From Thermoanaerobaculia bacterium (GTDB lineage: Bacteria; Acidobacteriota; Thermoanaerobaculia; Thermoanaerobaculales; Sulfomarinibacteraceae), in the NCBI GenBank assembly GCA_027061805.1, contig JAMOWA010000020.1, positions 1 to 56,246 of the forward strand: a stretch of 56,246 nucleotides of DNA, written 5' to 3'. Positions 18 to 29,030 of the stretch are shown piece after piece. Position numbers and translations under genes: made by a program. Positions within the stretch are counted from its first letter, which is position 1. Each line of letters starts with the position of its first letter. The notes beneath the pieces are model-generated. The model worked only from the letters and a program-made list of their open reading frames with translations, had not been told where the DNA came from and did not search any database.

Positions 18-1241
18 ATGACCGTCTGGAGAGCGATCCGCCCGCTGGACGTGCTCTACCTTCGGGGCAACCGGCTGTTCGGCGCGGCGGCGGGGCACTC
101 GGAGGCGTTGATGCCGCCGTGGCCGTCGGTGTTCGCCGGGGCGATCCGGAGCCGGATGCTGGTGGACGCCGGAGTGGATCTCGGCCGGTTCACGAACGAG
201 GATGCCTCACCGCCGGCAGGGCTCGGTGGTGTGCTGGGAACGCCCGCGGAACCGGGCACCTTCCGGGTCGCCCACGTGGCGCTGCTCGCGCCCGGGAAGG
301 ACGGCGAGCCGGGAGAACCCGTCTTCCCCCTCCCAGCCGACCTCGTGGTGGTCCGTGAGTCCGGAAAGGCGGCTTCCGGCTGCGGAGGAGACGAGAAACG
401 GTCCCGCGACGGTCTGGAGGTGCACCGCCTGGTCCCGAGCCCCTGGCCCGATGCCATCGCGACCTCGGCGGCCCCGCAGCGGGCCCTCGCGTTGCGGCTG
501 TCAAGACCCGCGAAGCCGGAAACGGGATGGTGGCTCGACCTCGACGGGTACGAGACCTGGCTTGCGGGCGAGACGCCCTCCCCGGAGCGGCTCGTGGCGG
601 TCCGGGATCTCTGGAAGACCGACCTGCGGCTCGGCATCGCGCTCGACGACGCCAGCCGGACGTCGGCGACAGGCCAGCTCTACACCTCGGACGCCGTGGC
701 CATGGCCCGGGGGGCCGGGTTCCTCGTGGGGATCGAGGGGGCCTCCGATGGAGACGTCCCCTCGGAGGGGCTGCTCCGGCTCGGCGGTGATGGCCGCGGG
801 GCGGAGATCACGGCGTGGAGCGGCCCCGTGCCCGGCGATCCCGGGGTGCGCCCCGGCGAGCCGTTCGTGCTCTTCCTCGAGACGCCGGGGCTGTTCCCGG
901 ACGGCTGGGTCCCGCCCGGGGTGGATCCGGAGAGCCTCCGGCTGGAGGCGGACGGCCTCACCGCCCGTCTCGCCGCCGCCGCCGTGCCGCGGGCGCAGGT
1001 GGTGTCGGGGTGGGACGTGGCGGCGCACCGGCCCAAGCCCGCCCAGCGGGCCGTGCCCGCCGGGGCGGTCTACTGCTTCGACCGGGTGTCCGGCGATCCG
1101 GCGGCATCCGTGGAGAGCCTCTGGCGGCTGATCGAGGCGCGGCTCGGCGGAGGCTGGGACACGGTCTGGAAACAGCGCCGCGCCGAGGGGTTCAACGCCG
1201 TGCGCCTCGGCCGCTGGCCGGGAGAGGCCGGCCGTGACTGA
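18..1241 (+). CDS. cmr3: Type III-B CRISPR RAMP protein Cmr3
   Basis: Cmr3 is a RAMP subunit of the Cmr effector complex; with Cmr2/Cas10 it caps the 5' handle end of the crRNA. The 407-residue product begins with the family's typical strand and loop (IRPLDVLYLRGNRLFG, then MPPWPSVFAGAIRSRML), which is the RAMP fold's first strand and conserved helix. The C-terminus has a glycine-rich loop (GGGWDTVWKQ) as in other Cmr3 proteins. The ATG at 18 is preceded by a strong AAGGAGGTG ribosome binding site, so the start is secure. cmr2/cas10 should lie immediately upstream, outside the window. The next Cmr gene does not follow directly: about 280 bp of repeat-bearing DNA separates it from cmr4, which is unusual for a Cmr operon. 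Confidence 0.88.
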   Translation: MTVWRAIRPLDVLYLRGNRLFGAAAGHSEALMPPWPSVFAGAIRSRMLVDAGVDLGRFTNEDASPPAGLGGVLGTPAEPGTFRVAHVALLAPGKDGEPGEPVFPLPADLVVVRESGKAASGCGGDEKRSRDGLEVHRLVPSPWPDAIATSAAPQRALALRLSRPAKPETGWWLDLDGYETWLAGETPSPERLVAVRDLWKTDLRLGIALDDASRTSATGQLYTSDAVAMARGAGFLVGIEGASDGDVPSEGLLRLGGDGRGAEITAWSGPVPGDPGVRPGEPFVLFLETPGLFPDGWVPPGVDPESLRLEADGLTARLAAAAVPRAQVVSGWDVAAHRPKPAQRAVPAGAVYCFDRVSGDPAASVESLWRLIEARLGGGWDTVWKQRRAEGFNAVRLGRWPGEAGRD

Positions 1242-1329
1242 GCCTCGCCCGCGCGGCTCGATCGTGGAGCGCGGACCTCGGTCCGTGGGGAAGGGAATGG
1301 TCCCGGTGCTCTCCGTGCCGATTGAGGAA

Positions 1330-1462
1330 TGCGGGCTGAAGCCCGCGCTCCCACGGGGCCTTCGTGGAGCGCGGGCTTCAGCCCGCCATCACCGAGGTTG
1401 TGGCGGAGGAGCTGCGCGCGGCGGCCACAAAGGCCCCCTCGGAGCGCGGGTTTCAGCCCGCA
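1330..1462. repeat. Palindromic REP-like cluster between cmr3 and cmr4 (3 copies)
   Basis: The gap 1242-1519 contains three copies of a 22-bp palindromic element whose core is GCGGGCTGAAGCCCGC plus GCTCC. One copy reads forward (1330-1351) and two read in reverse (1366-1387 and 1441-1462, the last with one C-to-T change). The first two are arranged head to head, as in bacterial interspersed mosaic elements, and could form a long hairpin in RNA between cmr3 and cmr4. No gene is visible in the gap. Confidence 0.9.
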
Positions 1463-1519
1463 AGATTTCCGTGGGGATTCGAGAAGAACACGACGGACAG
1501 ATTGCGAGGAGGTGAATCC

Positions 1520-2440
1520 ATGTTCGAAGTGAAGCAACCACTGTTCATCTACTGCATCAGCCCGGTCCACATGGGCGCGGGCACGGCGCTGGGCGCCGTG
1601 GACAACCCGATCCAGCGGGAGGTCCACACGGGGCATCCGAACATGGCGGGGTCGGGCCTCAAGGGCGCGTTCCGGGATGTCTTCGAGGCTGCCACGAGCA
1701 AGGCCGAGGCCAACGCGATCTTCGGTCCCGCGGGAGAGGGGGCCAACGCCTCCGACCACGCCGGGGCGATCTCCTTCGCCGACGCCCAGCTCGTGCTGTT
1801 CCCGGTCCGGTCGCTGCGCCGTTCCTTCGTCTACGCCACCTGCCCCACCGCCCTGGGACGGCTCCAGCGGCTGCTCGCGATCGCCGGGATCGAGGATGCG
1901 AAAAGCTGGAGCATCCCCGACGTGACGGACGATCACTGCGTCGTCGTCGAGGGTTCGAAAGCCGTTGCAGACGGGAAACTCGTCCTCGAGGCGTACCAGT
2001 TCGAGGCCAGGTCCGATGCCGCGCTGAAGAACATCGCCAAGTGGCTCGCGGACAACGCGCTGCCGGCCGATGAGGGAACCGCCTACTTCCGGTCCAAGCT
2101 GGAATCGGACCTCGTGCTGCTTTCCGACGAGCGGTTCAACCACTTCGTCCGCCACGCCACGCTCGTGGAGCCCCACGTGCGGATCTCCGATGAGAGCGGC
2201 ACGGCGGATGACGGCGGGCTCTTCTACACCGAGAACCTGCCGCCCGAGTCGCTGCTGGTCTCCCTCGCCATGGCCTCCAAGCAGCGGGTGAAGAAGGGGA
2301 ACAGCGACGGCGATGGGAAGTCAGCGGCCGAGGTCCTGAAAGCGGTCCGGGGCTCCATCGACGGGGAGCTCGTCCAGGTGGGCGGCGACGCCACCACCGG
2401 CCGCGGCCAGGTGGTGCTGCGCTTCGCGGGAGGTGCGTGA
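1520..2440 (+). CDS. cmr4: Type III-B CRISPR RAMP protein Cmr4 (backbone, target-RNA cleavage)
   Basis: Cmr4 forms the repeated backbone of the Cmr complex and cuts target RNA every six nucleotides. The 306-residue product starts with the family hallmark: CISPVHMGAG, then VDNPIQRE, then GSGLKGAFRD. Asp28 in VDNPIQRE is at the position of the catalytic aspartate known in Cmr4 proteins, so the subunit looks active. The C-terminal GDATTGRGQV is the usual RAMP glycine-rich loop. The ATG at 1520 follows GAGGAGGTG; reading could extend upstream to 1364, but that part is repeat DNA and was excluded. The stop overlaps the start of cmr5 by one base (TGATG), indicating translational coupling. Confidence 0.92.
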   Translation: MFEVKQPLFIYCISPVHMGAGTALGAVDNPIQREVHTGHPNMAGSGLKGAFRDVFEAATSKAEANAIFGPAGEGANASDHAGAISFADAQLVLFPVRSLRRSFVYATCPTALGRLQRLLAIAGIEDAKSWSIPDVTDDHCVVVEGSKAVADGKLVLEAYQFEARSDAALKNIAKWLADNALPADEGTAYFRSKLESDLVLLSDERFNHFVRHATLVEPHVRISDESGTADDGGLFYTENLPPESLLVSLAMASKQRVKKGNSDGDGKSAAEVLKAVRGSIDGELVQVGGDATTGRGQVVLRFAGGA

Positions 2441-2829
2441 TGGCGGGCAAGAAGACGATGCAGACCCTCGACCAGGAACGGGCGGCGTTCGCGTGGCAGA
2501 AGGTGGCCGAGGCAAAGACAAAGCTGGGCGACAAGAGAAAGTTCGACAACTACACCAACCTGGCCAAGTCGGCACCAGCGCTCATCATGGGCAACGGTCT
2601 CATGGCGACACTCGCGTTCTTCCAGCAGAAGAGCGAAGAGTCCCGGGTTCTCAACGGTGCGATCTGCGGCTGGCTTGTGAAGAGCACCGCCTTCATCATG
2701 GGCTCCGAATACGCAACCGTGATGGAAGGTCTCCACGGCGCCGACGCCGCTCAGTACCTCCACGCCACCGAGGAGGCGCTCGAGATCCTCCGCTGGATCC
2801 GGCAGTTCGCGCCGACGCTGAAGGGGTGA
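2440..2829 (+). CDS. cmr5: Type III-B CRISPR small subunit Cmr5
   Basis: Cmr5 is the small helical subunit that lines the crRNA-target duplex in the Cmr complex. The product has 129 residues, the usual size, is predicted to be all helical, and has the family opening (LDQERAAFAWQKV) and the conserved KYxxLAKSAP-like segment (NYTNLAKSAPALIMGNGL) that places it confidently. I use the ATG at 2440, which overlaps the cmr4 stop; an in-frame GTG lies one codon earlier. It sits between cmr4 and cmr6 as in many Cmr operons, with only four bases before cmr6. Confidence 0.9.
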   Translation: MAGKKTMQTLDQERAAFAWQKVAEAKTKLGDKRKFDNYTNLAKSAPALIMGNGLMATLAFFQQKSEESRVLNGAICGWLVKSTAFIMGSEYATVMEGLHGADAAQYLHATEEALEILRWIRQFAPTLKG

Positions 2830-2833
2830 GGCC

Positions 2834-4249
2834 ATGCGAGCAGCGGTACCGAAAAAGGTGGGTACGGACTTCTCCAAGGCGCCGCCAGGCCACCGGTTCC
2901 GGCTGTACTTCGAGGTCTGGAACGACGGTTGGACCATTGACTCCCAGAAAAAGAAGGACGCGGTGGCCAGGGTCCTGGACATGGGCCCTGCACGTGAGAT
3001 CGTCGAGGCCCTGAACGCCCGCTCCCGGCACTTCGGTGAAGGGGTCTTTCGCCTCGATGCCGTCGCCACCGCCCCCTTCGTCACCGGGATGGGGATGGAG
3101 CACCCGCTGGAGAACGGCTTCGCCTTCCTCGATCCCTACGGCGTGCCCTACCTGCCGGGAAGCTCGGTCAAGGGCGTGCTGCGCCGCGCCGCCGAGGAGC
3201 TGGCGCTCTTCGAGGCGGACAGCCGGGGCTGGACCCTGGCCGCCGTCTGGTGGCTCTTCGGCTTCGACGCGAGCAGCGGCTTCTTCGGCCGGGGAAAGAA
3301 GGACGATCCCGAGCCGATCCGCGAGGAACGCGAGCGCTGGCACGGGGCCTACCGCAAATGGAGCGCGGGCTTCAGCCCGCAGACACCCCCCGGCGAATCC
3401 GGAAGCGCGGCCCCCGGCCCGCACGATCCCGGCGGCATCCTCGAGGCGTTTCGCAGACTCGTCGATCGCGGTGGCAAGCTCGGCACGACCGCGGCCGACT
3501 TCCTGCAGGCGCTCGAGGAAGACGCCTCCGCCCGCAACTCCATCCACACCCGCGGCTCCCTGGGCTTCCGCGACGTGATCCCCCTTCCGGGGAAGGGCGA
3601 CACAGCCAACCTGCGTGTGGACATCATGAACCCGCACTACACCCACTACTACCAGGGCAAGGAGCCGCCCCACGACGCGGGCAGCCCCAACCCGATCTTC
3701 TACCTGACCGTCCCGCCCGGCTGGCGGTTCCCCTTCACCGTGGACCTCCTGCCGGTCCGGGGCCTTCCAGCCTGGTTCACCGAGGAGACCGAAGGCGTCC
3801 CCCGCTGGCAGGCCCTCCTCCACGCCGCCTTCGAGCACGCCTTCGACTGGCTCGGCTTCGGCGCCAAGACCAGCCTGGGGTATGGGGGGATGGACGTGGA
3901 CCGGGAGGCGGAGGAACGGGCTCGGAAGGAGGCGGAAGCGAGACAGCGGGAGGAGGAGCGGCGGCAGAGGGAGGAAGAGGAGCGCCGTGCGCGGGAAGAG
4001 GAGGAGGCAAGGCTCGCTGCCATGACCCCACTGGAGAGAGAGCTGGAGAAGCTGCAATCGGCGGACCACGACGGATTCATCGAAGTCTTCCGGGAGCTCG
4101 ACAGGTTCGAGGGCGAGGAGCAGAGACGTCTTGCTGAGGCGCTCAAGGGATGGATGCAGGAACACGGTGAATGGAAGATCAAGAAGAAGAAGGGGAAGAA
4201 GTGGGACCGTGTCAGAACGATCAAGGAGATCCTCGGGGAGGCGACATGA
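2834..4249 (+). CDS. cmr6: Type III-B CRISPR RAMP protein Cmr6 with charged C-terminal extension
   Basis: Cmr6 is a RAMP subunit at the 3' end of the crRNA in the Cmr complex. Residues about 70-110 contain the diagnostic RAMP stretch (TGMGMEHPLENG, then PYLPGSSVKGVLRRA) and LGFGAKTSLGYGG is the glycine-rich loop near residue 345. At 471 residues it is much longer than usual. After the RAMP core comes a highly charged Glu/Arg helix (about residues 355-398), probably a coiled coil, and a lysine-rich tail ending near the stop. Residues 176-183 (WSAGFSPQ) are encoded by a complete copy of the local palindromic repeat, followed by a Pro/Gly/Ser-rich linker, so a repeat has been tolerated inside the gene. 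The stop overlaps cmr1 by four bases (ATGA). Confidence 0.88.
   Translation: MRAAVPKKVGTDFSKAPPGHRFRLYFEVWNDGWTIDSQKKKDAVARVLDMGPAREIVEALNARSRHFGEGVFRLDAVATAPFVTGMGMEHPLENGFAFLDPYGVPYLPGSSVKGVLRRAAEELALFEADSRGWTLAAVWWLFGFDASSGFFGRGKKDDPEPIREERERWHGAYRKWSAGFSPQTPPGESGSAAPGPHDPGGILEAFRRLVDRGGKLGTTAADFLQALEEDASARNSIHTRGSLGFRDVIPLPGKGDTANLRVDIMNPHYTHYYQGKEPPHDAGSPNPIFYLTVPPGWRFPFTVDLLPVRGLPAWFTEETEGVPRWQALLHAAFEHAFDWLGFGAKTSLGYGGMDVDREAEERARKEAEARQREEERRQREEEERRAREEEEARLAAMTPLERELEKLQSADHDGFIEVFRELDRFEGEEQRRLAEALKGWMQEHGEWKIKKKKGKKWDRVRTIKEILGEAT
3360..3381 (-). repeat. REP-like palindrome inside the cmr6 reading frame
   Basis: A full reverse-orientation copy of the 22-bp locus repeat (core GCGGGCTTCAGCCCGC) lies in frame within cmr6. 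It encodes WSAGFSPQ and does not interrupt translation. Confidence 0.9.
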
Positions 4250-5355
4250 AGACGCGAGCCGTCACGCTGGAGTTCGTCACGCCCGCGTTTCTGGGCGGGG
4301 CGGACCAGTCCTCCGAATGGCGCACGCCGCCGATCAAGGCGATGCTCCGCCAGTGGTGGAGGATCTGGGCCGCCTCGGGAAGCCGGTACAACTGGAAAGC
4401 GGTGCGGGAGATCGAGGGCGTCATCTTCGGTCATGCCGCGCTCGAACACAACGGAAAGGCCTGGCACATCAGGAGCCCGGTCAGGCTCCGGTTGAGACCA
4501 GTCCGCACCGATTGGATCGAAGACTGGTCTCCCACCGGGAAGGTCCATCATCCGGAAGTGGGCAAAGGGCCCAATGGCATGGACGTTGGCGCCGACCTGT
4601 ACCTCGGCTACGGTCCGCTGGCGTACCAGAAGGGCCCGGGCACGGTGCTGAAGGCGCCTCCCGCCCTCGGCCCAGGATCCTCGGGCGAGCTGCTCCTTCG
4701 CTATCCGGAGACGCTCCCGGTGGACGAGTTCACCTCCGTCGATGTGGATGCCGGGCTCTCGGCTGCGTTGCATCTCGCACACCTCTTCGGCACGGTGGGC
4801 TCCCGGAGCCGGAACGGCTGGGGTTCTTTCGAGCTCTCGCATGATGGAAGGCCACTCTTGCTGGAGAACGACCTCCGCGATCTGGCACAGAAGTACGCGC
4901 GCCCCCTCGACAAATGTCTCGAGCTGGAATGGCCCCATGCCATCGGGACCGATGAGAAAGGGCTGCTCCTCTGGAGGACGAAGGCGGCATTCCGCACCTG
5001 GGGCGAGGTCATGAAGGAGCTCGCCCGGGTGAAAATCGCGTTCAGGACGGCGCTTGATCCTGGGGGCAGGCTCACCGACGTCAGGGAGCGACATGTTTTG
5101 GCTTATCCAGTGACAAACCACACTGTCAACAGTTGGGGAAAGAACTCTCGTCTTGCCAACCAGCTGCGTTTCAAGGTCCACCGCACCGGTGATGGGAGGT
5201 TCCAGGGTTGGGCGTACCACCTGCCGTGTGGTCTCCCGCAGACGCTCGTCGAGAAACTGTCGGCGGAGGAGCAGCGGAACGTCCGCCAGATGGAGGCCCG
5301 TACCTGGCGAAAGGTCCACGGAATCCTTGACGAGAACATGGATCGTTGGATGTGA
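4246..5355 (+). CDS. cmr1: Type III-B CRISPR RAMP protein Cmr1
   Basis: Cmr1 is the RAMP subunit that, with Cmr6, closes the 3' end of the Cmr effector. The 369-residue product opens with the family signature: LEFVTPAFLGGADQ, then EWRTPPIKAMLRQWWR, and a later glycine-rich segment GTVGSRSRNGWGSF. I chose the ATG at 4246 because it overlaps the cmr6 stop as ATGA and begins exactly at the conserved first strand; an in-frame ATG at 4171 would only add cmr6-overlapping sequence. It is the last gene of the cmr4-5-6-1 block. Immediately downstream is a cluster of palindromic repeats rather than another cas gene. Confidence 0.9.
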   Translation: MKTRAVTLEFVTPAFLGGADQSSEWRTPPIKAMLRQWWRIWAASGSRYNWKAVREIEGVIFGHAALEHNGKAWHIRSPVRLRLRPVRTDWIEDWSPTGKVHHPEVGKGPNGMDVGADLYLGYGPLAYQKGPGTVLKAPPALGPGSSGELLLRYPETLPVDEFTSVDVDAGLSAALHLAHLFGTVGSRSRNGWGSFELSHDGRPLLLENDLRDLAQKYARPLDKCLELEWPHAIGTDEKGLLLWRTKAAFRTWGEVMKELARVKIAFRTALDPGGRLTDVRERHVLAYPVTNHTVNSWGKNSRLANQLRFKVHRTGDGRFQGWAYHLPCGLPQTLVEKLSAEEQRNVRQMEARTWRKVHGILDENMDRWM

Positions 5356-5406
5356 CCCTCATGGCGCCTCCCCAACCACCCCGTTTTCTGTTGAGAACAT
5401 GCCGGA

Positions 5407-5506
5407 TGCGGGCTGAAGCCCGCGCTCCCCAAGGGGGTAAGTTCATGCGGGCTGAAGCCCGCGCTCCGTGGGGGGACGCTTCGGGGAGCGCGGGCTTCAG
5501 CCCGCA
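5407..5506. repeat. REP-like cluster between cmr1 and vapBC (3 copies)
   Basis: Three copies of the 22-bp palindromic repeat: forward at 5407-5428 and 5446-5467, reverse at 5485-5506. It lies between the convergent ends of cmr1 and vapC, where such hairpins could also act as transcription terminators. Confidence 0.9.
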
Positions 5507-5534
5507 TTGGAATCGCCCGGATTGGTCTTGCTCG

Positions 5535-5909
5535 TCAGCTTTTCATTCCGTCCCACCCGCACCCCAGCTCCGTGGCCGCCGCGGCCAGTTTCCGGTCGAG
5601 GGTCCACAGGGGGGCGGAGGCGAGGCGGGCGGAGGCCAGGAGGTGTACGTCGATCCAGCCAAGGCCGCGGCCGTGCAGGCCGTGGGATTCGAGCAGCGTG
5701 AGGGCCTCGTCGAAGGTGGCCACAGAGACCCGGGGCAGATCCTGGAGCAGTCCGAGGATCTCCGCGCGGTTTCGCAGTCCGCCGCAGGCGAGCTCGCCGA
5801 TCACGTGCTCGTGGCACAGGACCAGGCCCTCGTCGAGCAGACGGACGAGCCTGGCATTCCCCCGGCGCAGGTGGTCCACCCACACGGAGGTGTCCACCAG
5901 GACGATCAT
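5535..5909 (-). CDS. vapC: VapC-type PIN-domain toxin ribonuclease
   Basis: VapC toxins are PIN-domain, metal-dependent RNases, usually directed at tRNA or rRNA. The 124-residue product is full length for the family. It begins MIVLVDTSVWVDHLR with the first acidic PIN residue (Asp6), has the second acidic site in HVIGELACGGL, and the third in LGWIDVHLLASA, so the acidic triad looks intact. Its start overlaps the end of the upstream vapB by four bases, the usual antitoxin-toxin coupling. The pair sits on the opposite strand in the middle of the CRISPR locus, between cmr1 and the CARF RNase, with palindromic repeats on both sides. Confidence 0.88.
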   Translation of the reverse strand: MIVLVDTSVWVDHLRRGNARLVRLLDEGLVLCHEHVIGELACGGLRNRAEILGLLQDLPRVSVATFDEALTLLESHGLHGRGLGWIDVHLLASARLASAPLWTLDRKLAAAATELGCGWDGMKS

Positions 5910-6097
5910 GCGCTCCTGCGCCTCGGAGGCAGCTCGAGCTCCGGCTCGGTGCCGCCGAGGCGGGCGAGCCGGCGGGCGCTCTCCAGGGCGATCAGCGCCT
6001 CCAGGCCCCGGCGGACCAGCGCCGTCTTCTCCTCGATCCCCGTCAGCCTCCGGGCCTTCTCGAGGAGGTCGTCGTCGATGTTGAGGGTCGTTCTCAT
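5906..6097 (-). CDS. vapB: VapB-type antitoxin
   Basis: This 63-residue protein has the short N-terminal strand (MRTTLNIDDDLLEKARRLTG) and helix pair of VapB antitoxins that bind DNA as ribbon-helix-helix-like dimers; the C-terminal tail, rich in Arg and Pro, would wrap the toxin. I start at the ATG at 6097 because it begins the conserved MRTTLNID strand; longer readings run into palindromic repeat DNA. A good promoter lies directly upstream, with TTGACA and CATCTT boxes 17 bases apart. Antitoxins of this type normally repress their own promoter together with the toxin. Confidence 0.82.
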   Translation of the reverse strand: MRTTLNIDDDLLEKARRLTGIEEKTALVRRGLEALIALESARRLARLGGTEPELELPPRRRSA

Positions 6098-6104
6098 GCA
6101 GATC

Positions 6105-6133
6105 AAGATGCCTCTTTCGTGCATCATTGTCAA
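6105..6133 (-). promoter_or_regulatory. Predicted vapBC promoter (leaderless)
   Basis: On the minus strand a perfect TTGACA box (6128-6133) is followed after 17 bases by CATCTT (6105-6110). The -10 box ends only seven bases before the vapB ATG, so the transcript would begin at or next to the start codon. Confidence 0.5.
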
Positions 6134-6179
6134 TGGGAAACCCATGAGGAGCGTGCAGGGGGCCACGGGTGGCGACGGA

Positions 6180-6279
6180 TGCGGGCTGAAGCCCGCGCTC
6201 CGTGGGGAGGCTCTTCGGGGAGCGCGGGCTTCAGCCCGCATGAGTCTTCTCGACAACGGAGCGCGGGCTTCAGCCCGCA
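6180..6279. repeat. REP-like cluster between vapBC and the CARF RNase (3 copies)
   Basis: Copies of the 22-bp palindrome at 6180-6201 (forward), 6219-6240 and 6258-6279 (reverse). With the cluster at 5407-5506 it brackets the vapBC pair. Confidence 0.9.
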
Positions 6280-6385
6280 TTCCAAACATTCAATCGCACC
6301 ACGCCGTTCTCCGGTCCCCCGGAGAAACCCGGCCTCGCCCACGGTGGGAGGGACGGTGCATCGCCGATGACTTGGAGGTCGTGAC

Positions 6386-7750
6386 ATGACGGATATCCTG
6401 CTGATCAACCTCGGGAAAGGGAGCACCGCACTCCCGCCCCTCGGCTACGACAGGACCGTGTACCGGTTCGAGGAGGATGGTTTCGAGCTGGAGACCGTCG
6501 TCGCGGGACTGGCGCTGTGGAAACACCTTGTCCACACTAGTTCCGCTCCAGTGTCGGTGCGCTTTGCCGCCACGCGGGAGGCCTGGGAGGGGAAGGAAAA
6601 GGCCATCCGAGAGGAGGTGGCCGCGGTGGGGCTCGATGCGGCGGCGCTGGGGCCTCCGTTCTTCGTGGAGATACCGCGGAGCATTGAGGGTCTCTGGTCC
6701 GTCCTGCCCCACCTGGAGGAATGGGCTGAACAGCACCGGGAAGACGGAGAGCCGCCGGTCCTCCACATGGACCTGACCCACGCCTGGCGCGCCATCCCAA
6801 TCTCGCAACCCTGGCTCGCCCTGTTCCTCCAGCGGATCGGCTTCGTCGAGATCGGCGTGATGGGGTATGGGGCGTACGTCCCGAATCAGCCGCCGGCGCC
6901 CTACATCGACCTCTCGGCGGTGATGGGGCTCGCGGAATGGGCCGCGGGGGTTCGCGACTTCGAGCGCTACGGGCGGGCGGGAACATTGCGTGAGCTGATG
7001 GATGGTCAGAGTCAGCGTTGGACGAGGGACGTCTTCGTGACCGGTAAGAAACGGGATCTCGAGGGTGCCCTGACGTACCTGAGGACCCTGGTGAACGCGG
7101 CCAAGGCCATGGAAGCCTTTCTCCCGGCAGGTCTTCCCATCGAGCTGGGGTTGGAGGCGCGGGGGGCCCTCGGAAGCTCCTCTGGCGAGGATCTTGCGGC
7201 TGGGCTGGAGCGTCTGGTCCCTGGAATGGGTCCCCTGGGGGAAAGGCTTCATCGAGCGGCGTCACGTTTCGCATGGAGAGGGGCCGTGCCTTCGAAGGGA
7301 GAGAAGGAGAAACGCGCACGGCTCGACGTGGGGGAAATCGAGCGCGAGCTGGACCTCGTGGAGTACTGGACCGAGCTTGGTGCGGTGGGAGAGGCCCTTC
7401 GTGCGTTGCGGGAGCTCATGGTCAACCGGGTGCTTCTGGCACGGGGGATGCAAACGAGATGGTTGTGTCCTGAGAACCGGAAAGCTGCGGAGAGCGCCTT
7501 GAACAGCATCCGGCCAACCAAGGATAGCCCTTGCTACTCCAGCCTGCCCGATCGGCTGCGAACGCTTGGAGGCCTCTGGCACGAAGTCTGCGAGGAGCGC
7601 AACGCCTTCGCCCACGCCGGGATGAAACCGGGCGCGGTCAGGGTTCGCGACAAGAAAGATCGGCTCCGCGGTTTCATCGAGCGCTTCAACGAGCTCGATG
7701 AACAGGGGGATGGTTTGTGGAAGCTCCGCGGTTCGCCGGAGGATGTGTGA
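6386..7750 (+). CDS. Csx1/Csx2-like CARF-HEPN ribonuclease (TM1812 family)
   Basis: Proteins of this type are ancillary RNases of type III CRISPR systems: the N-terminal CARF domain binds cyclic oligoadenylate made by Cas10 and switches on a C-terminal HEPN RNase. The 454-residue product starts with a Rossmann-like strand (DILLINLGKG) and has DLTHAWRAIP at about residues 129-138, the conserved DxTHxxR-type motif of the TM1812/Csx2 branch. The HEPN active site is visible as R405-N-A-F-A-H410, an Rx4H motif, so the nuclease should be active. The ATG at 6386 has a GGAGGT site upstream. The gene stands alone between two palindromic repeat clusters. Family is clear; whether it should be named csx1 or csx2 is not. 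Confidence 0.82.
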   Translation: MTDILLINLGKGSTALPPLGYDRTVYRFEEDGFELETVVAGLALWKHLVHTSSAPVSVRFAATREAWEGKEKAIREEVAAVGLDAAALGPPFFVEIPRSIEGLWSVLPHLEEWAEQHREDGEPPVLHMDLTHAWRAIPISQPWLALFLQRIGFVEIGVMGYGAYVPNQPPAPYIDLSAVMGLAEWAAGVRDFERYGRAGTLRELMDGQSQRWTRDVFVTGKKRDLEGALTYLRTLVNAAKAMEAFLPAGLPIELGLEARGALGSSSGEDLAAGLERLVPGMGPLGERLHRAASRFAWRGAVPSKGEKEKRARLDVGEIERELDLVEYWTELGAVGEALRALRELMVNRVLLARGMQTRWLCPENRKAAESALNSIRPTKDSPCYSSLPDRLRTLGGLWHEVCEERNAFAHAGMKPGAVRVRDKKDRLRGFIERFNELDEQGDGLWKLRGSPEDV

Positions 7751-7869
7751 TTCGACACCGTGATCGCCTCGTGGTCTCGTTCTTTCCGAAGCGTGGACGC
7801 GCTGCCCTGCGGAGCTGTTCCGGAGCACGGGCGTCAGTTCGCAAACGACGACATCGTTGGGAAAGGCAA

Positions 7870-8117
7870 TGCGGGCTGAAGCCTGCGCTTTGCAGGGAAG
7901 AAGGATTATGCGGGCTGAAGCCCGCGCTCCGATGGGTCGGACCGCCGGGTGAGGCCGCCACGGAGTGTCCGCAGGGATGCCGTGGACGGCGGCTGTGAAA
8001 GAAGCGGGAGGCGACGTTGCAGGGCCTCTTGGGTTCGACACGGCAAGAGAGCGACATGCGGGCTGAAGCCCGCGCTCCCTGAAAGATGTCCCCACGGAGC
8101 GCGGGCTTCAGCCCGCA
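7870..8117. repeat. REP-like cluster between CARF RNase and primase-polymerase (4 copies)
   Basis: The 449-bp gap 7751-8199 has four copies of the 22-bp palindrome: 7870-7891 (degenerate), 7909-7930 and 8057-8078 (forward) and 8096-8117 (reverse). I see no gene in the gap. Confidence 0.85.
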
Positions 8118-8199
8118 TCGTTCCATGTGGTGGTGGAATGGCGGTGAAACGTCGCGAGCCTTGGCCGGTGCCGGCTGACCGTGGAAAGGAGGCCCAATC

Positions 8200-10137
8200 A
8201 TGACGACAACTCTCGACGCTCTTCAGCACGCCCTCTCCCAGAACAACCGCGAGACGGCCCGGGCCGCCCTGGGCGAGCTGATCCGGAACGCACCCGGGGT
8301 GCGCGATCCAGCCCACCACCTGGCGCTGGGTGCCGCCGCGGAGGAGCTCGGGGCCTGGGAGGCCGCGGAGACGGCCTACAACCTGGTGCTGCGGGAGGAC
8401 GCGGCACATCCCGTGGCCCTGGAACGGCTGGCGGAGCTGGCAGCCGAGGCCGGTGACCTGGAGAGTGCGGCCATCCGGCGCGAGCGCCTGGCGGAGGCCC
8501 GGCCGGACGATGTGGAGAACCTCAAGGCATTGTTGCGTCTCTACCAGCGGCTGGGGTGGCGAGAGCAGGTGGAACGGATGGCCGGGAGGCTCGAGACCGC
8601 CGGGGTGCGGCTTCCGCGTTCCGGGACGCTGGAGGCACCGGTGCCGGCCGGAACGGAGGCAACGGAGGAGGAGGTCTCGTCATCTCTCCTGGAGCGGGTG
8701 GTGAACCCTCCCGATGCCGATGTGGCCCGCTTCCTTTCGCTCTTCTCGGGGAGGGAGGACGTGTACGCCCGTCAGTGGTACAACCCGAGGAAGGGCATTG
8801 CGGGGTACTCGCCGGTCGAGGAGCCGCTCACGGCCCGGGTGGTGCGGCGGCATCTCTTCGGTGACCTCACCGTGGGCGTCTATCCCATCCGGCTGGACGG
8901 GACGGTGGTGTTCATGGCGCTGGATCTGGACCTCACCCGGGCCGCCATGGAATGGGCCCGCCGGGGCCGGGAGGAGGCGGCCTCGGTGCGCCGGAACCTC
9001 GAGACGGCGGTGGCCGCGGCCCTGGATGCCTCGGAGAAGGCCGGCCTCACTCCTCTCGTGGAGGACTCAGGGTACAAGGGGCGGCACCTGTGGTTCTTCC
9101 TGGAGCAGCCGGAGCGCGTCACCGTGGTCCACTCGGTGATCCGGGCACTGGTGCGCTCCTTCGAGGAGCAGGTGCCTGCGGGTGTCGCGGTGGAACACTT
9201 CCCGAAGCAGGCGCGCCGTGGCGGCAAGGGCTACGGCAACCTCATCAAGCTGCCCCTGGGGGTCCACAGGCGGACGGGCCGGCGGGCATGGCTCCTGGAC
9301 GGAAGCGGGAAACCCCACCAGGACCCCTTCGGCCTGCTGCGCATGGTGCAGAGGCTGGGCCACGGTGCCCTCATGGTGGTGGCCGAGCGGCTGGGTGAGA
9401 CGGTGGGAGCTCCGCCCCTGGAAGCTCCCTGGGAGGGAGAGGAGACCCTACCGGCGCCGCCGCCCCCCGCGCCGGTCACGGATCCCGGCGTCCAGGCCGC
9501 GGTGCCACCCGCCTGGACCGGGGCGGACTTCGAGCGCCACCCGGTCATCGCCCACGTGCTGGCCCGCTGTCCTGTGCTCGCCGAGATCGTCCGGCGGGGC
9601 ATCGAGGATCGGAGCCTGGAGCACGACGAGATGATCGTGCTCCAGCAGACCTTCGGCTACCTGCCCGGTGGTGTGGCGGCGAGCAACTACGTGCTGGAAC
9701 GTGCTGTCGGGATCGGGGAGGACCGGCACCTCAAGTCGCCCTTGCGGGGCAATCCCATCTCCTGCCCGAAGATCCGTCAGAGGGTGCCGCACATCACGTC
9801 CAGGGTGGCATGCCGCTGCGAGTTCCCGGAGGACGTGGACCATTACCCCACACCCGTCCTCCACCTGAGAAGCGCCCCGCAGGAGGGGGCCGTTCCGGAA
9901 GGGGATTCGAGGGGTGACCTGGAGGGCCTGGCCCGCCGTTTCCTGACCCAGGCGGCCCTGGTGGAGGCCGCGCGGAGGGACCTGGCCGCCCTGGAGACGG
10001 CACTGGCCGGCCAGCTCGCGGCCGCTGGCGGTCTTCTGGTGGTGGACGGGGTCCAGTTGCATGTGGAGGTGCGGGAAGGCGTGCCCCACGTGGCTTGGAG
10101 CAAGAAGGAGGACAGCCGGAAGGAGAAGGGTCAGTGA
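8200..10137 (+). CDS. CRISPR-associated primase-polymerase (TPR + AEP + PriL-like Cys module)
   Basis: This 645-residue protein is an archaeo-eukaryotic-type primase-polymerase of the kind reported beside cas1 and cas2 in type III loci (CAPP). Residues about 1-130 are helical repeats of TPR type. The catalytic core follows: motif I LDLDLT with Asp242 and Asp244, motif II SGYKGRH at 290-296, and motif III around Glu332 (VEHFPK). Family members can make primers and fill gaps, and a role in spacer acquisition has been proposed. Beyond a Pro-rich linker (about 405-435), the C-terminal region has Cys457, Cys522, Cys538 and Cys540, spaced like the four Fe-S cysteines of the PriL primase subunit; that assignment is my inference. 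The ATG follows AAAGGAGG. cas1 lies 277 bp downstream. Confidence 0.8.
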   Translation: MTTTLDALQHALSQNNRETARAALGELIRNAPGVRDPAHHLALGAAAEELGAWEAAETAYNLVLREDAAHPVALERLAELAAEAGDLESAAIRRERLAEARPDDVENLKALLRLYQRLGWREQVERMAGRLETAGVRLPRSGTLEAPVPAGTEATEEEVSSSLLERVVNPPDADVARFLSLFSGREDVYARQWYNPRKGIAGYSPVEEPLTARVVRRHLFGDLTVGVYPIRLDGTVVFMALDLDLTRAAMEWARRGREEAASVRRNLETAVAAALDASEKAGLTPLVEDSGYKGRHLWFFLEQPERVTVVHSVIRALVRSFEEQVPAGVAVEHFPKQARRGGKGYGNLIKLPLGVHRRTGRRAWLLDGSGKPHQDPFGLLRMVQRLGHGALMVVAERLGETVGAPPLEAPWEGEETLPAPPPPAPVTDPGVQAAVPPAWTGADFERHPVIAHVLARCPVLAEIVRRGIEDRSLEHDEMIVLQQTFGYLPGGVAASNYVLERAVGIGEDRHLKSPLRGNPISCPKIRQRVPHITSRVACRCEFPEDVDHYPTPVLHLRSAPQEGAVPEGDSRGDLEGLARRFLTQAALVEAARRDLAALETALAGQLAAAGGLLVVDGVQLHVEVREGVPHVAWSKKEDSRKEKGQ

Positions 10138-10225
10138 ACGGGTGGTGCAAGGACCGGCGGGCGGCGCCCGACCGGTATCGTGGGGCCGCTCCCCGTGTCG
10201 CCGAACCACCGGGGAAGGCTGTCAC

Positions 10226-10353
10226 GGAGCGCAGACTTCAGCCCGCAGGGATCCTGGTAGTTGAGTTCTCGGTACCGCCGCATGGTGGCGCTGGACGAGC
10301 CCGTTGGCCTTCGTTGGCAAGAGAAAGAATATGCGGGCTGAAGCCCGCGCTCC
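10226..10353. repeat. REP-like pair upstream of cas1 (2 copies)
   Basis: One degenerate reverse copy (10226-10247) and one exact forward copy (10332-10353) of the 22-bp palindrome, in the 277-bp gap before cas1. Confidence 0.8.
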
Positions 10354-10414
10354 GTGGTGTTGTGTCTGGGGGCGCACGCCGCGGGCCCGTGTTTGAGAGG
10401 GCGGAGGAGGGCGC

Positions 10415-11491
10415 ATGTATTTCGTCGTGAACGAGGGAGGCGCTCGCCTCGCCTGCGAGGGGGAACGCCTCCGGGTGCTCCGCGAGGGGAAGGTGGTCCA
10501 GGAGGTACGTCTCCAGGACCTGGAGGGCGTGCTGGCCCTCCGTGCGGTGGGCCTCACTGCCCGCGCGGCCCGGAGTCTGTTGCGCCACGGCATCGAGGTC
10601 ACCTTCCTCGATACACAGGGCCGCTTCCTCGGGCGCCTGTCGGGGCCGGGCTCCCGGAACGCGGGGCTGCGCCTCGCGCAGGTCCGCAGGGCCCTTGACG
10701 AGCCGTTCCGGCTGGCGCTGGCCGCCCGGTTCGTCGAGGGCAAGCTGAGGAACCAGCGGGCGGTTCTGCTGCGGTACCGACGCAGGCACGACCGCGAGGC
10801 GATCCGGGACGCGGCCGGCCGGCTCCGGATCCTCGCCGAGCGGACGGGGGAGGCCGCGGACCTCGACGAGCTGATGGGGATCGAGGGGGCCGGTTCGCAG
10901 GTGTACTTCTCGGTCTTCGGCCGGCTGATCCGGAACCCGCTGTTCTCCTTCTCCGGAAGGAACAGGAGACCGCCGCGCGATCCCGTGAACGCCTGTCTCT
11001 CCTTCGGCTACACCATTACGGGGGCCATCATCGAGGGTGAGGTGGCCGGGGCCGGTCTCGATCCGGCGCAGGGGTATCTGCACCGTCCGGCGTGGAACCG
11101 TCCCTCGCTGGCACTGGATCTGCTGGAGGAGATGCGGGCCCCCGTGGTGGACTCCCTGGTGCTCACGCTGATCAACAGGAGCCAGCTGGGGCCAGCAGAT
11201 TTCGGACCGCCGGGCAGCAGGGTGGAGGAGGACGCCGGAGAGACCTCGCCGTGGCTGGAGGAGGATCGGGAACCCGCTCCAAACCGGGAGGGAGCCGTCC
11301 ACCTGGGTCGAACGGGGCGCCCGGTGTTCCTCAAGGCGCTTCTCGACAGGTTGCGGGAGCCGCGGCTGCACGTTCCCACGGGGCAGCAGCTCGAGATCCG
11401 TGAGATCTTCCGGAGGCAGGTGTGGAGCCTGGTCCGGGCCATCACGGAGGGAGACCCTGCCCTCTACGTCCCGTGGCAGGTGGAGGGTTGA
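10415..11491 (+). CDS. cas1: CRISPR adaptation integrase Cas1
   Basis: Cas1 is the integrase that inserts new spacers at the leader end of the array, acting as a complex with Cas2. The 358-residue product has all the family landmarks: Glu157 in the GIEG segment, His223 in YLHRP, and SLALDLLEEMRAPVVD with Asp235 and Glu238 at the third metal-ligand region, so the active site is complete. The N-terminal beta-rich domain begins at MYFVVNEGG. A GGAGGAGG site precedes the ATG. A stretch of about 45 residues after RSQLG (residues 255-300, rich in Pro, Gly and Glu) is an insertion relative to compact Cas1 proteins. cas2 begins three bases after the stop. No reverse transcriptase domain is fused to it. 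Confidence 0.95.
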   Translation: MYFVVNEGGARLACEGERLRVLREGKVVQEVRLQDLEGVLALRAVGLTARAARSLLRHGIEVTFLDTQGRFLGRLSGPGSRNAGLRLAQVRRALDEPFRLALAARFVEGKLRNQRAVLLRYRRRHDREAIRDAAGRLRILAERTGEAADLDELMGIEGAGSQVYFSVFGRLIRNPLFSFSGRNRRPPRDPVNACLSFGYTITGAIIEGEVAGAGLDPAQGYLHRPAWNRPSLALDLLEEMRAPVVDSLVLTLINRSQLGPADFGPPGSRVEEDAGETSPWLEEDREPAPNREGAVHLGRTGRPVFLKALLDRLREPRLHVPTGQQLEIREIFRRQVWSLVRAITEGDPALYVPWQVEG

Positions 11492-11493
11492 AG

Positions 11494-11772
11494 ATGTACG
11501 TACTGGTGGCCTACGACGTGGTGAGTGACCGGCGCCGTGCCAGGCTGGCCAGGCGGCTGGTGGACTTCCTGCCGAGGGTCCAGAAGTCCGTCTTCGAGGG
11601 AGAGGTGCCCGACCAGCGCTTCAGGGAGCTGGAACGGGTGCTCCAGGACGGAATCGACCCGGAGGTGGACTCCGTCCGGATCTACCACCTCTGCCGACGG
11701 TGCTGGGGCTCGGTGCTGGAGATGGGCAGGGGGAGCCTGCCGGTGGATTCGAGGGACGATGTCATCCTCTGA
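11494..11772 (+). CDS. cas2: CRISPR adaptation protein Cas2
   Basis: Cas2 is the dimeric scaffold of the Cas1-Cas2 integration complex. The 92-residue product is the normal size and starts MYVLVAYDVVSDRRRARLAR with the typical ferredoxin-like first strand and the conserved Asp8. The middle segment LPRVQKSVFEGEV and the strand DSVRIYHLC are likewise characteristic. The ATG at 11494 lies just after the cas1 stop; longer readings overlap cas1. The array's leader follows downstream. Confidence 0.93.
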   Translation: MYVLVAYDVVSDRRRARLARRLVDFLPRVQKSVFEGEVPDQRFRELERVLQDGIDPEVDSVRIYHLCRRCWGSVLEMGRGSLPVDSRDDVIL

Positions 11773-12720: not shown

Positions 12721-15365
12721 GTTCCAATAGATGACCCGATGAAAAGGGGATTACGACCAAGTTCTGGGCTGCGTTCTCCCAGGCGTCGGCATCGGTTCCA
12801 ATAGATGACCCGATGAAAAGGGGATTACGACCCGCGTGCTCCCACGCGCCCCTCTCCGTGAACCCAGTGTTCCAATAGATGACCCGATGAAAAGGGGATT
12901 ACGACCCTGGCGTGCCCTTTACCGAGTCCTGATTGCCTCAAAAGTTCCAATAGATGACCCGATGAAAAGGGGATTACGACCGCGTGCTCCCACGCGCCCC
13001 TCTCCGTGAACCCAGTGCGTTCCAATAGATGACCCGATGAAAAGGGGATTACGACATCAGCTCACGCGCATGCCGCGCGTCACGCGCCACGTTCCAATAG
13101 ATGACCCGATGAAAAGGGGATTACGACCGGGTTGCCCTCACGTGTGCGTGCGCCTGGCCAACCAGGTTCCAATAGATGACCCGATGAAAAGGGGATTACG
13201 ACAGCCACCGCACGCGCCCGCACGGCATCACGTAGCCGGTTCCAATAGATGACCCGATGAAAAGGGGATTACGACTGTACGGGCAGCCCGTGGAGTGGTT
13301 GTGGCGGGAGATGGTTCCAATAGATGACCCGATGAAAAGGGGATTACGACTCTCGCTCGGCCCGTACCACTTACGACGTTGCATGATGTTCCAATAGATG
13401 ACCCGATGAAAAGGGGATTACGACGTCCACGACCTGCCAGCGCCCATCGTCCACAGCATGGTTCCAATAGATGACCCGATGAAAAGGGGATTACGACCCA
13501 CCCCCGACCGTCACCGTCACGGTCGGGGGGCAATGTTCCAATAGATGACCCGATGAAAAGGGGATTACGACTCGACCAGCGTCAACCGCTGATCGGGGTT
13601 GTAACAGGGGGTTCCAATAGATGACCCGATGAAAAGGGGATTACGACTCGACAGACCACCAGCCGCCGACCACGACAGTCTCGCGTTCCAATAGATGACC
13701 CGATGAAAAGGGGATTACGACATTGACAGTTGATTCTGGCACGAGTTCGACGGTCATGTTCCAATAGATGACCCGATGAAAAGGGGATTACGACGCACTC
13801 ATACGGGCGACCGTCGAGCTCATCGATGACGTTCCAATAGATGACCCGATGAAAAGGGGATTACGACGAAGGCAGAACTGCAGACTGTCGGCCGTCCCTA
13901 AATAGTTCCAATAGATGACCCGATGAAAAGGGGATTACGACAACGCTCCAGGATCGAGGAGATGATGACCTCGCGGGGTTCCAATAGATGACCCGATGAA
14001 AAGGGGATTACGACCCGGCCGGGCTCATGCGCCCCCCATGTCAAGCAGCAGTTCCAATAGATGACCCGATGAAAAGGGGATTACGACGAGGAACCCCTCA
14101 CGGACGTAGGTCTCAAAAGAGTCGTTCCAATAGATGACCCGATGAAAAGGGGATTACGACCCTTGTCCGTGCCATACACGGCATCGAGATAGAACACGTT
14201 CCAATAGATGACCCGATGAAAAGGGGATTACGACCCGGGCCTTCGTGGTTCACGATGGCGTAGTACATCTGTCTCGTTCCAATAGATGACCCGATGAAAA
14301 GGGGATTACGACTCGAGGGTGCGCACGGCCTCCGCCTCGATGCTGTACAGTTCCAATAGATGACCCGATGAAAAGGGGATTACGACAGCCCCGTTGTCCG
14401 CGATGGCAGTGATCCCGCGCGGGGTTCCAATAGATGACCCGATGAAAAGGGGATTACGACCGCCGGGCGGGAGAGAGCGGAGGAGCAGGTAGTCGTAAGT
14501 TCCAATAGATGACCCGATGAAAAGGGGATTACGACCCGCGTCCACGTCACGGTGGGGGACCCCGTACACGCACGGTTCCAATAGATGACCCGATGAAAAG
14601 GGGATTACGACCCGGACGCCGTCACGGTCCAGTCCTCGCCACCGTACAGGTTCCAATAGATGACCCGATGAAAAGGGGATTACGACCTCCGCGTCCTCAC
14701 GGAACTCACCGGCGGAGACCCGCCTGTTCCAATAGATGACCCGATGAAAAGGGGATTACGACTGGTCACGATGAGATCAACCATTGCCATTGCTTCCCTC
14801 GTTCCAATAGATGACCCGATGAAAAGGGGATTACGACAGCTGATCGAGCAGCGCTTCCGCGATATCCCACCGCCGGTTCCAATAGATGACCCGATGAAAA
14901 GGGGATTACGACTTCAACCACCCCAAATACCTCCAAACTATCCACAACCTTGTTCCAATAGATGACCCGATGAAAAGGGGATTACGACTTCAACCACCCC
15001 AAATACCTCCAAACTATCCACAACCTTGTTCCAATAGATGACCCGATGAAAAGGGGATTACGACCTCATCTCCTCCCTCCCTCCTCATACCACACCATAT
15101 CAAGTTCCAATAGATGACCCGATGAAAAGGGGATTACGACAATCTCATCCAAACTAATCTTCCCCTCCCTAATCATCTTCCAATAGATGACCCGATGAAA
15201 AGGGGATTACGACCCCCCTGCCAGGATGCAGCGATGGTGGTGAGCCCGCTGCGTTCCAATAGATGACCCGATGAAAAGGGGATTACGACCAGTAAGGTTG
15301 ACGGTCGCACGAACCGCAGGAACAAATGGTTCCAATTGATGACCCGATGAAAGGGGGGCCCGGTC
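12721..15365 (+). CRISPR. Type III CRISPR array: 36 repeats, 35 spacers
   Basis: The 37-bp repeat begins GTTCCAATAG, has a middle GACCCGATGAAAAGG and ends GGATTACGAC. Thirty-five copies are complete (one, at 15177, has its first G changed to C); the thirty-sixth, at 15329, is degenerate after the middle and marks the trailer end. Spacers are 36-39 bp. Transcription is expected left to right: the last eight bases ATTACGAC resemble the 5' handles of type III crRNAs, the decayed repeat is at the right, and cas1-cas2 are at the left. Spacers 2 and 4 overlap over 36 bases with a one-base offset; spacers 30 and 31 are identical; spacers 30-33 have no G; spacer 11 is a hairpin. Apparent reading frames through the array are repeat translations only. 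Confidence 0.98.
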
Positions 15366-16453: not shown

Positions 16454-16590
16454 GTGCGGATTCGGTGGATTGGTGGGAAGACGGCGAAAACTCGACGTGT
16501 GTCCGATGCTGCACCAGGCCAATGGGTTCGTTCCGATGGAGCGTGTTGCAGGAAGCCCAGCGGGCTGCCGCCCGTCCGGCGGAGCGAAGA

Positions 16591-16730
16591 CACGGACAGG
16601 GACAGGGACACGGTCAGGGACACGGTCAGGGTCGGGGTCAGGGACAGGGTCGGGGACACGGACAGGGCCGGGGTCAAGGTCAGGATCGGGATCGGGGATT
16701 CGGACTGGGCCAGGGTCGGGGTCCGAGGCA
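16591..16730. repeat. Degenerate hexamer minisatellite
   Basis: About 140 bp built from six-base units such as GGGACA, CGGTCA, GGGTCG and CGGACA. It lies in the 630-bp gene-free interval between cas6 and icmF. Confidence 0.85.
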
Positions 16731-16733
16731 GTG

Positions 16734-16790
16734 ACCCCCCCGCCCACCCGGTGAAGGGCTGAAGGGTGAAGAAGGAAGTGAAGGCGTCCG
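16734..16790. repeat. Composite repeat: G-rich core with TTCACCC-like units
   Basis: On the minus strand, degenerate TTCACCC/TTCAGCCC units run into ACCGGGTGGGCGGGGGGG (16734-16752), a sequence able to form a G-quadruplex. The hexamer minisatellite begins immediately next to the core. Confidence 0.75.
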
Positions 16791-16805
16791 CCGTCCACCC
16801 GAGGG

Positions 16806-16893
16806 TCCGTGGCCGTGGCTCTGACCGTGGCCGTGACGGTGGCCGTGCCCGTGTCAGTGACCGTGGCCGTGACCGTGACGGTGCCCGTGTCGG
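16806..16893. repeat. Degenerate hexamer minisatellite
   Basis: Six-base units of the type GGCCGT, GACCGT and GACGGT repeat over about 90 bp. The remaining sequence to the icmF stop codon contains a CCGGCC/GGCCGG hairpin (about 16952-16970) without a T tract and no gene. Confidence 0.8.
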
Positions 16894-16973
16894 CTTCTCC
16901 CCCTCGCCCCTGCGCCCGTGCTCCTCTGCTCCTCTGTTCGGGATGATCTGCAGCCGGCCCCGCGGGCCGGTGA

Positions 16974-20336: not shown

Positions 20337-20444
20337 GGGTCCCTCCCGTGCGCGGAGCGCACCGAGATGATAGCAGGGGAGGGAAGGTGAGGAGGTGATG
20401 ACATTCCCCTCGCAGCCACCGGGGAGCAGGAATGAAGCAGGGCC

Positions 20445-20577
20445 CGGGGACGGGGTCACGGGCAGGTTCGGGGTCACGGACAGGGTCAGGGACACGGACA
20501 GGGACACGGACAGGGACACGGACAGCGGCACGGTCACGGCCATGGACACGGCCATGGACACGGCCACGGTCACCGGG
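20445..20577. repeat. Degenerate hexamer minisatellite upstream of icmF
   Basis: Units GGGACA, CGGACA and related six-mers (with GGACACGGACAG-like higher-order repeats) fill most of the 300-bp gap between icmF and the next gene. Confidence 0.85.
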
Positions 20578-20637
20578 ATCCCCGGCTCCGCCGCCGCTCC
20601 CTGGAGCTCCGTATCCGGCGGGCCGGCCGGTGGACCT

Positions 20638-27807: not shown

Positions 27808-27846
27808 GAATGAGGATGAGGGGAGGTGCGACGCCCGGCCACCCGT

Positions 27847-27957
27847 CCGTGCCCCCGACCCTGTCCGAGACCGTGTCCCTGTCCTTGACCCTGCCCCGAT
27901 CGTGACCCCGGTCATGATCCTGTCCGTGTCCTTGTCCCTGTCCGTGACCGTGACGGT
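27847..27957. repeat. Degenerate hexamer minisatellite
   Basis: Units GTCCGT, GTCCCT, GACCGT and GACGGT over about 110 bp. Confidence 0.8.
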
Positions 27958-28236
27958 ATGGCGCGCGGGGCGCGGCCGGGCCGCGCCTGCGGTGCATGTC
28001 GCCGTGCCGGACGGACGCGAGCGTCCGCCGTCCCGGCTCCCCGCCCCGCCGGGGCTTCGCCCCTCCGCGCGCGGGAGTGGAGCGAGCGCACGGGAACGGG
28101 AAGGTCTCTTTGAAAGTGTAGGCGCGTCCTTCAGGGCGCGCCCCCGGCTCCGTACGGTCGTAGGAACGCATCCGGTCGAGGTGTTCTCCCCTGCACCCCT
28201 GCACCCTTGCCCCCCTGCCCCCGGGCAGGAGACGCC

Positions 28237-28283
28237 TTCACCTCTTCACGTCTTCACCTCCTCACCGGGTGGACGGGTGGGGG
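28237..28283 (+). repeat. Composite repeat: 3 x TTCACSTC plus G-rich core
   Basis: Three octamers (TTCACCTC, TTCACGTC, TTCACCTC) are followed by CTCACCGGGTGGACGGGTGG. The core includes the last codons and stop of the four-helix-bundle gene, which reads the opposite way. Confidence 0.75.
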
Positions 28284-28618
28284 TTCAGATGCCTCCACGC
28301 GATGGCGCGGACCTGGTCGAGGAGGTCGAGGGCCGTGGTGGCCTCCCGGGCATCGATGGCGCCAGCCCCGGCGAGGAGGCGAAGCTGGACGTCGGCCTCC
28401 CGGGCCGAGCCATACGCGATGCGCCAGTGGTTGGCTCCGGCCCGCCCGGGTCGTCCCAGCCCCTCGGCCAGGTTCGAGGGAACCGAAGAGGCCGAGCGGA
28501 CGAGCTGGTCCGCCACGGGCCGCAACGTCGGGGGGACCCGCTGGGCCAGCTTCAGGGCGATGGATGCGGCCTCCAGGGCCAGGTCGAGGACGACGGTGTG
28601 GGAGCGCGAGCGGTTCAT
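28262..28618 (-). CDS. Four-helix-bundle protein (23S rRNA intervening-sequence/S23 family)
   Basis: The 118-residue product matches the small four-helix-bundle family first found in 23S rRNA intervening sequences and related to the Avd accessory protein of diversity-generating retroelements; most members have no known function. The defining stretch is visible: PPTLRPVADQLVRSASSVPS, then NLAEGLGRPGR, ending with a long helix LDLLDQVRAIAWRHLN. The ATG at 28618 and its GGAGGTGACC ribosome binding site lie inside the outer arm of a 155-bp nested palindrome, whose other arm carries the same site and ATG pointing the other way. The 3' end overlaps a composite repeat core. No reverse transcriptase or rRNA gene is nearby. 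Confidence 0.82.
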   Translation of the reverse strand: MNRSRSHTVVLDLALEAASIALKLAQRVPPTLRPVADQLVRSASSVPSNLAEGLGRPGRAGANHWRIAYGSAREADVQLRLLAGAGAIDAREATTALDLLDQVRAIAWRHLNPHPSTR

Positions 28619-28770
28619 GGTCACCTCCGGGTCGTTCATACCCCTCCCACAGCCTCCGGGCGTCCCGGAGTCAAGGGTCGCGGCGTCTGCGCCGCGACCG
28701 CAGGCGTGCCCTTGACGCCGGGGCGCCCGGAGGCTACCCACCCACACAGAACGACCCGGAGGTGACCATG
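28616..28770. repeat. 155-bp nested palindrome at the start of the four-helix-bundle gene
   Basis: Three nested arm pairs: a perfect 22-bp outer pair (28616-28637 with 28749-28770), a 27-bp middle pair with two mismatches (28651-28677 with 28709-28735), and a perfect 9-bp central hairpin with loop TCTG (28677-28685 with 28690-28698). Each outer arm encodes GGAGGTGACCATG, giving two outward-facing translation starts. Only the left one opens a real gene; the right one ends after 15 codons. Confidence 0.9.
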
Positions 28771-28790
28771 GCCACGCGCTTCCGGCTTCG

Positions 28791-28905: not shown

Positions 28906-29030
28906 AAGGTGTGACTGGTACCGTGTTCGTCTCCACAACCAGATCACCTCTCGCAGTGGAATGTGGGAGAGGGGAAGGAGAGCAGGTTTGCGAAACAGCA
29001 GTTAGAGGTAATTGAAACCCTCTCAATTTC

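Follow-up and report, generated by a model that had tools for sequence, protein, structure and literature searches.

What kind of enzyme is encoded immediately upstream of cas1 and cas2 in the type III-B CRISPR locus of a Thermoanaerobaculia bacterium, and is the cysteine-bearing region that follows its catalytic core related to the Fe-S domain of PriL? We address both questions for the gene at positions 8200..10137 (+ strand) of a 56,246-nucleotide stretch of DNA, the whole of which is referred to below as the window.

The primase-polymerase gene and its locus

The reading frame is open and intact and encodes a protein of 645 aa with the order TPR region, AEP core, cysteine module and coiled-coil tail. 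It scores 268.5 bits against the curated cut-off of 200 for the NCBIfam family NF040561 ("CRISPR-associated primase-polymerase type A1"), and PADLOC labels it PrimPol, an 'adaptation polymerase' (9.8e-76). The first-pass annotation had pointed to a comparison with the described CRISPR-associated primase-polymerases (CAPPs), the family in which the protein falls. The score above the cut-off is joined by a complete AEP active site, a TPR region with a cysteine-bearing C-terminus and adjacency to cas1-cas2 in a type III locus, and we consider it very probable that the protein is a CAPP of type A1, of the CAPP-TPR class and belonging to a type III-B system, whose parts work as proposed below. It joins an already described family, and the system itself is not new, because its architecture, genomic place and proposed function have all been published.

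The N-terminal TPR-like helical region (residues 4-133; 8209..8598, +) is recognised by eight predicted helices and by TPR structures among the Foldseek matches of the predicted fold, with a weak Pfam match to TPR_16 that lies below the family cut-off. The AEP catalytic core (residues 172-397; 8713..9390, +) matches AEP-TOTE (PF22548) at 7.9e-36 in Pfam, and the crystal structures of MsCAPP (7NQF, 7P9J and 7NQD) are matched both by sequence (3e-26) and by predicted fold (Foldseek TMt 0.90-0.93). In an alignment of 75 homologues and the query, Asp242, Asp244 and the S290, G291, K293, G294 and H296 of the SGYKGRH motif (residues 290-296) are each present in all 76 sequences, while the position of Glu332 holds E in 71 and D in five. 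The earlier description of a TPR region followed by a complete AEP core stands, with every residue that it named correctly placed and conserved.

As ordered by PADLOC, the locus runs from the III-B effector genes cmr3, cmr4, cmr5, cmr6 and cmr1 (18..5355, +) through a Csx1/Csm6-type CARF-HEPN accessory gene (6386..7750, +) to the CAPP gene, directly followed, as had been noted, by cas1 (10415..11491, +; PF01867, 1.1e-86) and cas2 (11494..11772, +; PADLOC Cas2). A CRISPR array (12721..15289, +) with 37-nt repeats and spacers of 35-41 nt lies beyond them, with a further degenerate repeat from 15329. The cas10/cmr2 gene is found on another contig, C27, the end of which overlaps the first bases of the window within cmr3; since the end of C27 repeats the window start, the two contigs adjoin and together carry the complete III-B operon. 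A second cas1 lies in a separate locus on contig C64 (L160), which looks like type I-C from its open reading frames. No RVT_1 match was obtained anywhere in the 96.9%-complete genome or in the CAPP protein, in agreement with the original remark that the locus lacks a reverse transcriptase (RT).

Several other features of this DNA were recorded. A VapBC-type toxin-antitoxin pair occupies the minus strand between cmr1 and csx1 (5535-6289). A 23-bp palindrome, ATGCGGGCTGAAGCCCGCGCTCC, has 34 copies in the genome when up to two mismatches are allowed, with copies in the window (1317-10366) and on contigs C27, C64, C2 and C29; roughly half lie within or close to the III-B locus. Some copies are intragenic, as in cmr6 near 3360 and in cas10 on C27, and encode in-frame peptides such as AGFSP and ERGLQ. 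Low-complexity repeats with a 6/12-nt period (ACGGACAGGGAC-like), mostly intergenic, lie at 16555-16906, 20409-20600, 27828-28909 and 29500-29670. Within the array, spacers 2 and 4 (12832-13018) derive from a single protospacer acquired twice, offset by 1 nt, and share 36 nt. Spacers 30 and 31, which are identical, and spacers 32 and 33 (14913-15179) are 39 nt each and, unlike the other spacers, contain no G on the + strand. They are the only G-free runs of at least 30 nt in the whole window, and spacers without G or C number only 8 of 696 in this and related CAPP loci. These spacers look like GC-rich sequence in which every G has been changed to A; searches of viral contigs, of related genomes and of phage records found no protospacers for them.

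The four-cysteine module and the PriL Fe-S domain

The region behind the AEP core (residues 440-561; 9517..9882, +) carries four cysteines, which the first-pass annotation described as spaced like the Fe-S cysteines of PriL. A lack of conservation in close homologues would have spoken against that description, and the cysteines are in fact conserved across the 76 sequences: Cys457 and Cys522 in all, Cys538 in 72 and Cys540 in 75, with a shifted CxxC supplying a nearby cysteine in two of the exceptions. The spacing agrees with PriL in part. Fifty of the CAPP sequences have C-x64-C-x15-C-x1-C, whereas most archaeal PriL sequences in the comparison set have C-x70-C-x8-C-x6-C, so the first gap is close and the last two differ; by spacing as a whole, the module falls outside the PriL pattern.

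Compared directly with the C-terminal domain (CTD) of PriL by hhalign, the module gives a score of 23.2 (E 0.0029, probability 10.6%), against at most 20.9 for 200 column-shuffled PriL profiles and at most 16.4 for 44 control windows taken from real protein alignments, either unrelated or reversed. The score stays the same after all cysteines are masked. A further comparison comes from phages: a profile HMM of the module matched eight proteins on phage contigs, in the four of which that were read an AEP-TOTE domain is followed by the cysteine module and then by a P-loop, weakly DUF927-like region. The modules of these phage proteins align with the CAPP module at a probability of 97.5% (E 7e-12) and with archaeal PriL-CTD at one of 92.6% (E 4.6e-7), the latter with a score of 45.9 where 100 shuffles reached at most 20.5. 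Because the phage modules bridge both, the CAPP cysteine module and the PriL Fe-S domain are probably true relatives, a relationship that the profiles support by transitivity. The earlier view of a PriL-like tail is therefore upheld for the relationship itself and not for the last two cysteine gaps. The four phage proteins that were read (loci L114, L117, L120 and L122, at about 5956-8739) are 889-914 aa long; in that of L117 the module covers residues 196-345 or so.

This relationship agrees with published work, in which PriCT domains are regarded as homologous to the PriL Fe-S domain (PMC5862659) and the CAPP CTD is proposed to act like Pri2/PriX (PMC10345425). Curated families do not extend as far. 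Pfam gave no family for the C-terminal region of the window protein, also when the module was scanned alone, and the families shown for 59 homologues include neither DNA_primase_lrg nor PriCT; the 'PriCT' label given to CAPP in PMC8211822 was likewise not recovered with Pfam. We therefore name the module PriL-like and keep it out of the Pfam PriL family. The model of the CTD is confidently predicted (pLDDT 91), and Foldseek and VIA searches with it returned coiled-coil and chance matches and no PriL. Only the tail was aligned in these searches, and since the tail took up the match list, the absence of PriL from it does not imply a different fold. An HMM of the CTD run against PDB sequences likewise gave coiled-coil and chance matches only.

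The tail in question (residues 570-640; 9907..10119, +) is C-terminal to the cysteine module and is modelled as a long helix followed by three strands. Among 59 homologues, 24 show a CTD match to PF22709, the Mu Gam/Gp157-like domain of TOTE systems; in those examined the match occupies this position. The window protein gives no PF22709 match that reaches E 1. This Gam-like tail did not figure in the first-pass annotation, and PMC8211822 makes no mention of Gam. CTD-CTD self-association has been reported for Marinitoga CAPP (PMC8211822), and a Gam-like coiled coil could explain it.

Plasmid-borne relatives, mostly annotated as DEAD/DEAH helicases, are similar in the AEP domain only, and the distant chromosomal relatives (L008-L012 and L021-L029) gave no score with the module HMM. 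Our proposal, which we put forward tentatively and at somewhat less than even confidence, is that the module is a true PriL-CTD homologue with a 4Fe-4S cluster, acquired together with the AEP domain from phage replication proteins of the AEP-Cys-ATPase type, such that a phage primase became a type III spacer maker. If the module does carry Fe-S, the initiation step of cellular primases would be linked to CRISPR spacer acquisition, and tests with cysteine mutants would be meaningful. The phage intermediates in turn provide sequence evidence that places the CAPP tail in the PriL/PriCT/PriX lineage.

The four cysteines may instead bind zinc and form a knuckle, structural or DNA-binding, comparable in role to the zinc finger of human PrimPol. 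The last pair, a CxC preceded by x15 and unlike the x8 and x6 of archaeal PriL, would suit such a knuckle, as would the shifted CxxC of two homologues, but the module is related through its phage homologues to PriL-CTD, which binds 4Fe-4S (PMC5862659), and agrees with it in the order of cysteines and helices. We regard zinc as a possible reading on which we remain doubtful.

A proposed role in spacer acquisition

A profile scan of species genomes recovered 80 CAPP loci, in hosts that include Planctomycetota, Myxococcota, desulfobacterial groups, Latescibacterota, Aminicenantes, Cloacimonadota and ANME archaea, among others. The closest named relative is a Thermoanaerobaculia MAG whose CAPP is about 71-73% identical. 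A cas1 gene is present in 75 of the 80 loci, nearly always directly downstream, and in several of the others the available DNA ends near the CAPP gene. CAPP and Cas1 distances are correlated (Mantel r = 0.81, permuted maximum 0.13), as would be expected of co-inherited partners, although the value concerns this gene pair only and may in part be due to shared descent. Archaeal loci L104 and L107 encode an RT fused to TPR-AEP-CTD; the RT is split over two adjoining frames in L111 and lies nearby in at least seven further loci or ORFs, a lower bound set by short flanks. With only some loci having RT fused or near, the comparison of these loci indicates that RT is an optional addition to CAPP. The CAPPs of L104, L107 and L111 are from ANME/Methanophagales, with the RT, fused or adjacent, being of the group II intron-like kind.

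Priming, polymerase activity, strand displacement and Cas1 binding were described for CAPPs in 2021, in work that included the biochemistry of MpCAPP (Marinitoga) and DbCAPP and showed a physical interaction of MpCAPP with Cas1 (PMC8211822). CAPP primes with a 5' purine NTP, and the contact of Marinitoga CAPP with Cas1 involves the part that precedes the CTD (PMC8211822, PMC10345425). By analogy, the AEP core of the window protein would bind single-stranded DNA, join a 5' purine NTP to a dNTP and extend the product, with strand displacement, as it does in Marinitoga CAPP. The PriL-like cysteine module, fused here to the AEP core, might pack near the initiation site and, like Pri2/PriX, steady the 5' triphosphate or the end of the primer-template. 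The AEP domain of MsCAPP primes without its CTD (PMC10345425), and priming in vitro thus does not require the cysteine module. The N-terminal TPR-AEP part would dock on Cas1, as shown in Marinitoga, and the Gam-like coiled coil may dimerise or hold DNA ends. The output would be either a double-stranded prespacer to be used by Cas1-Cas2 or the filling of repeat gaps after integration. CAPP-dependent spacer acquisition is not shown in the CAPP papers cited. The original suggestion of a self-contained enzyme for priming or filling in spacer DNA is accordingly reasonable in content, but it coincides with the published CAPP proposal (PMC8211822) and is not new.

CAPP may alternatively serve mainly to complete integration, filling in and displacing strands at the repeats, with no part in making prespacers. 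The strand displacement and Cas1 binding of CAPP (PMC8211822) are in keeping with this, as is its co-inheritance with cas1 seen in the locus counts and the distance correlation. De novo initiation is unneeded for fill-in, however, and is what the retained primase motifs and the PriL-like module point to, and such gaps can be filled by host polymerases; we judge this restricted role rather unlikely. That the gene is a mobile-element replication primase merely lying beside cas genes is very improbable, given the 75 of 80 cas1 associations of the TPR type, the lack of a replication helicase in the window protein and the NCBIfam equivalog match, notwithstanding the phage-encoded AEP-Cys-ATPase relatives and the helicase-annotated relatives on plasmids.

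A CAPP that primes DNA in partnership with Cas1 thus remains our preferred reading. It would place a dedicated, Cas1-tied DNA-priming enzyme in a III-B system that lacks an RT and belongs to none of the organisms studied to date.

Comparison with known primase-polymerases

The closest described counterpart is the TPR-type CAPP_A of Marinitoga piezophila and Marinitoga sp. 1137 (NF040561; PMC8211822), which has the same order of TPR, AEP and C-terminal cysteines, the same catalytic motifs and the same position ahead of cas1-cas2 in a III-B locus. The window protein is longer (645 aa versus 546 aa), its host is an acidobacterium, and no Argonaute gene was seen beside cas2 in its locus, unlike in Marinitoga. 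Its AEP domain is about 27% identical to that of MsCAPP. CART-CAPP, the RT-CAPP of Caloramator australicus (PMC10415136), has the AEP and CTD in common with the window protein but carries an RT, which the window protein and genome lack.

An older single-chain fusion of PriS and PriL is found in PolpTN2 of the Thermococcus plasmid pTN2, which likewise combines a catalytic AEP with a PriL-like part with a predicted 4Fe-4S in one chain, and which differs in serving plasmid replication, in having a PriCT-1 between these parts and, following them, a winged helix, and in its lack of any tie to CRISPR (PMC5862659). With the PriL/Pri2 CTD and PriCT/PriX (PMC5862659) the CAPP module shares, in this order, an N-terminal Cys, a Cys at the start of a helix, two further Cys and a Pro/aromatic motif. 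It differs in the last two cysteine gaps, in a shorter linker and in its fusion to AEP.

TPR-AEP-cysteine CAPPs beside cas1-cas2 were thus already published in 2021 (PMC8211822). What is new here is an acidobacterial CAPP, the conservation of the four cysteines over 76 sequences, the link to PriL-CTD by way of phage proteins and a tail that resembles Gam, all of which are refinements of a known family.
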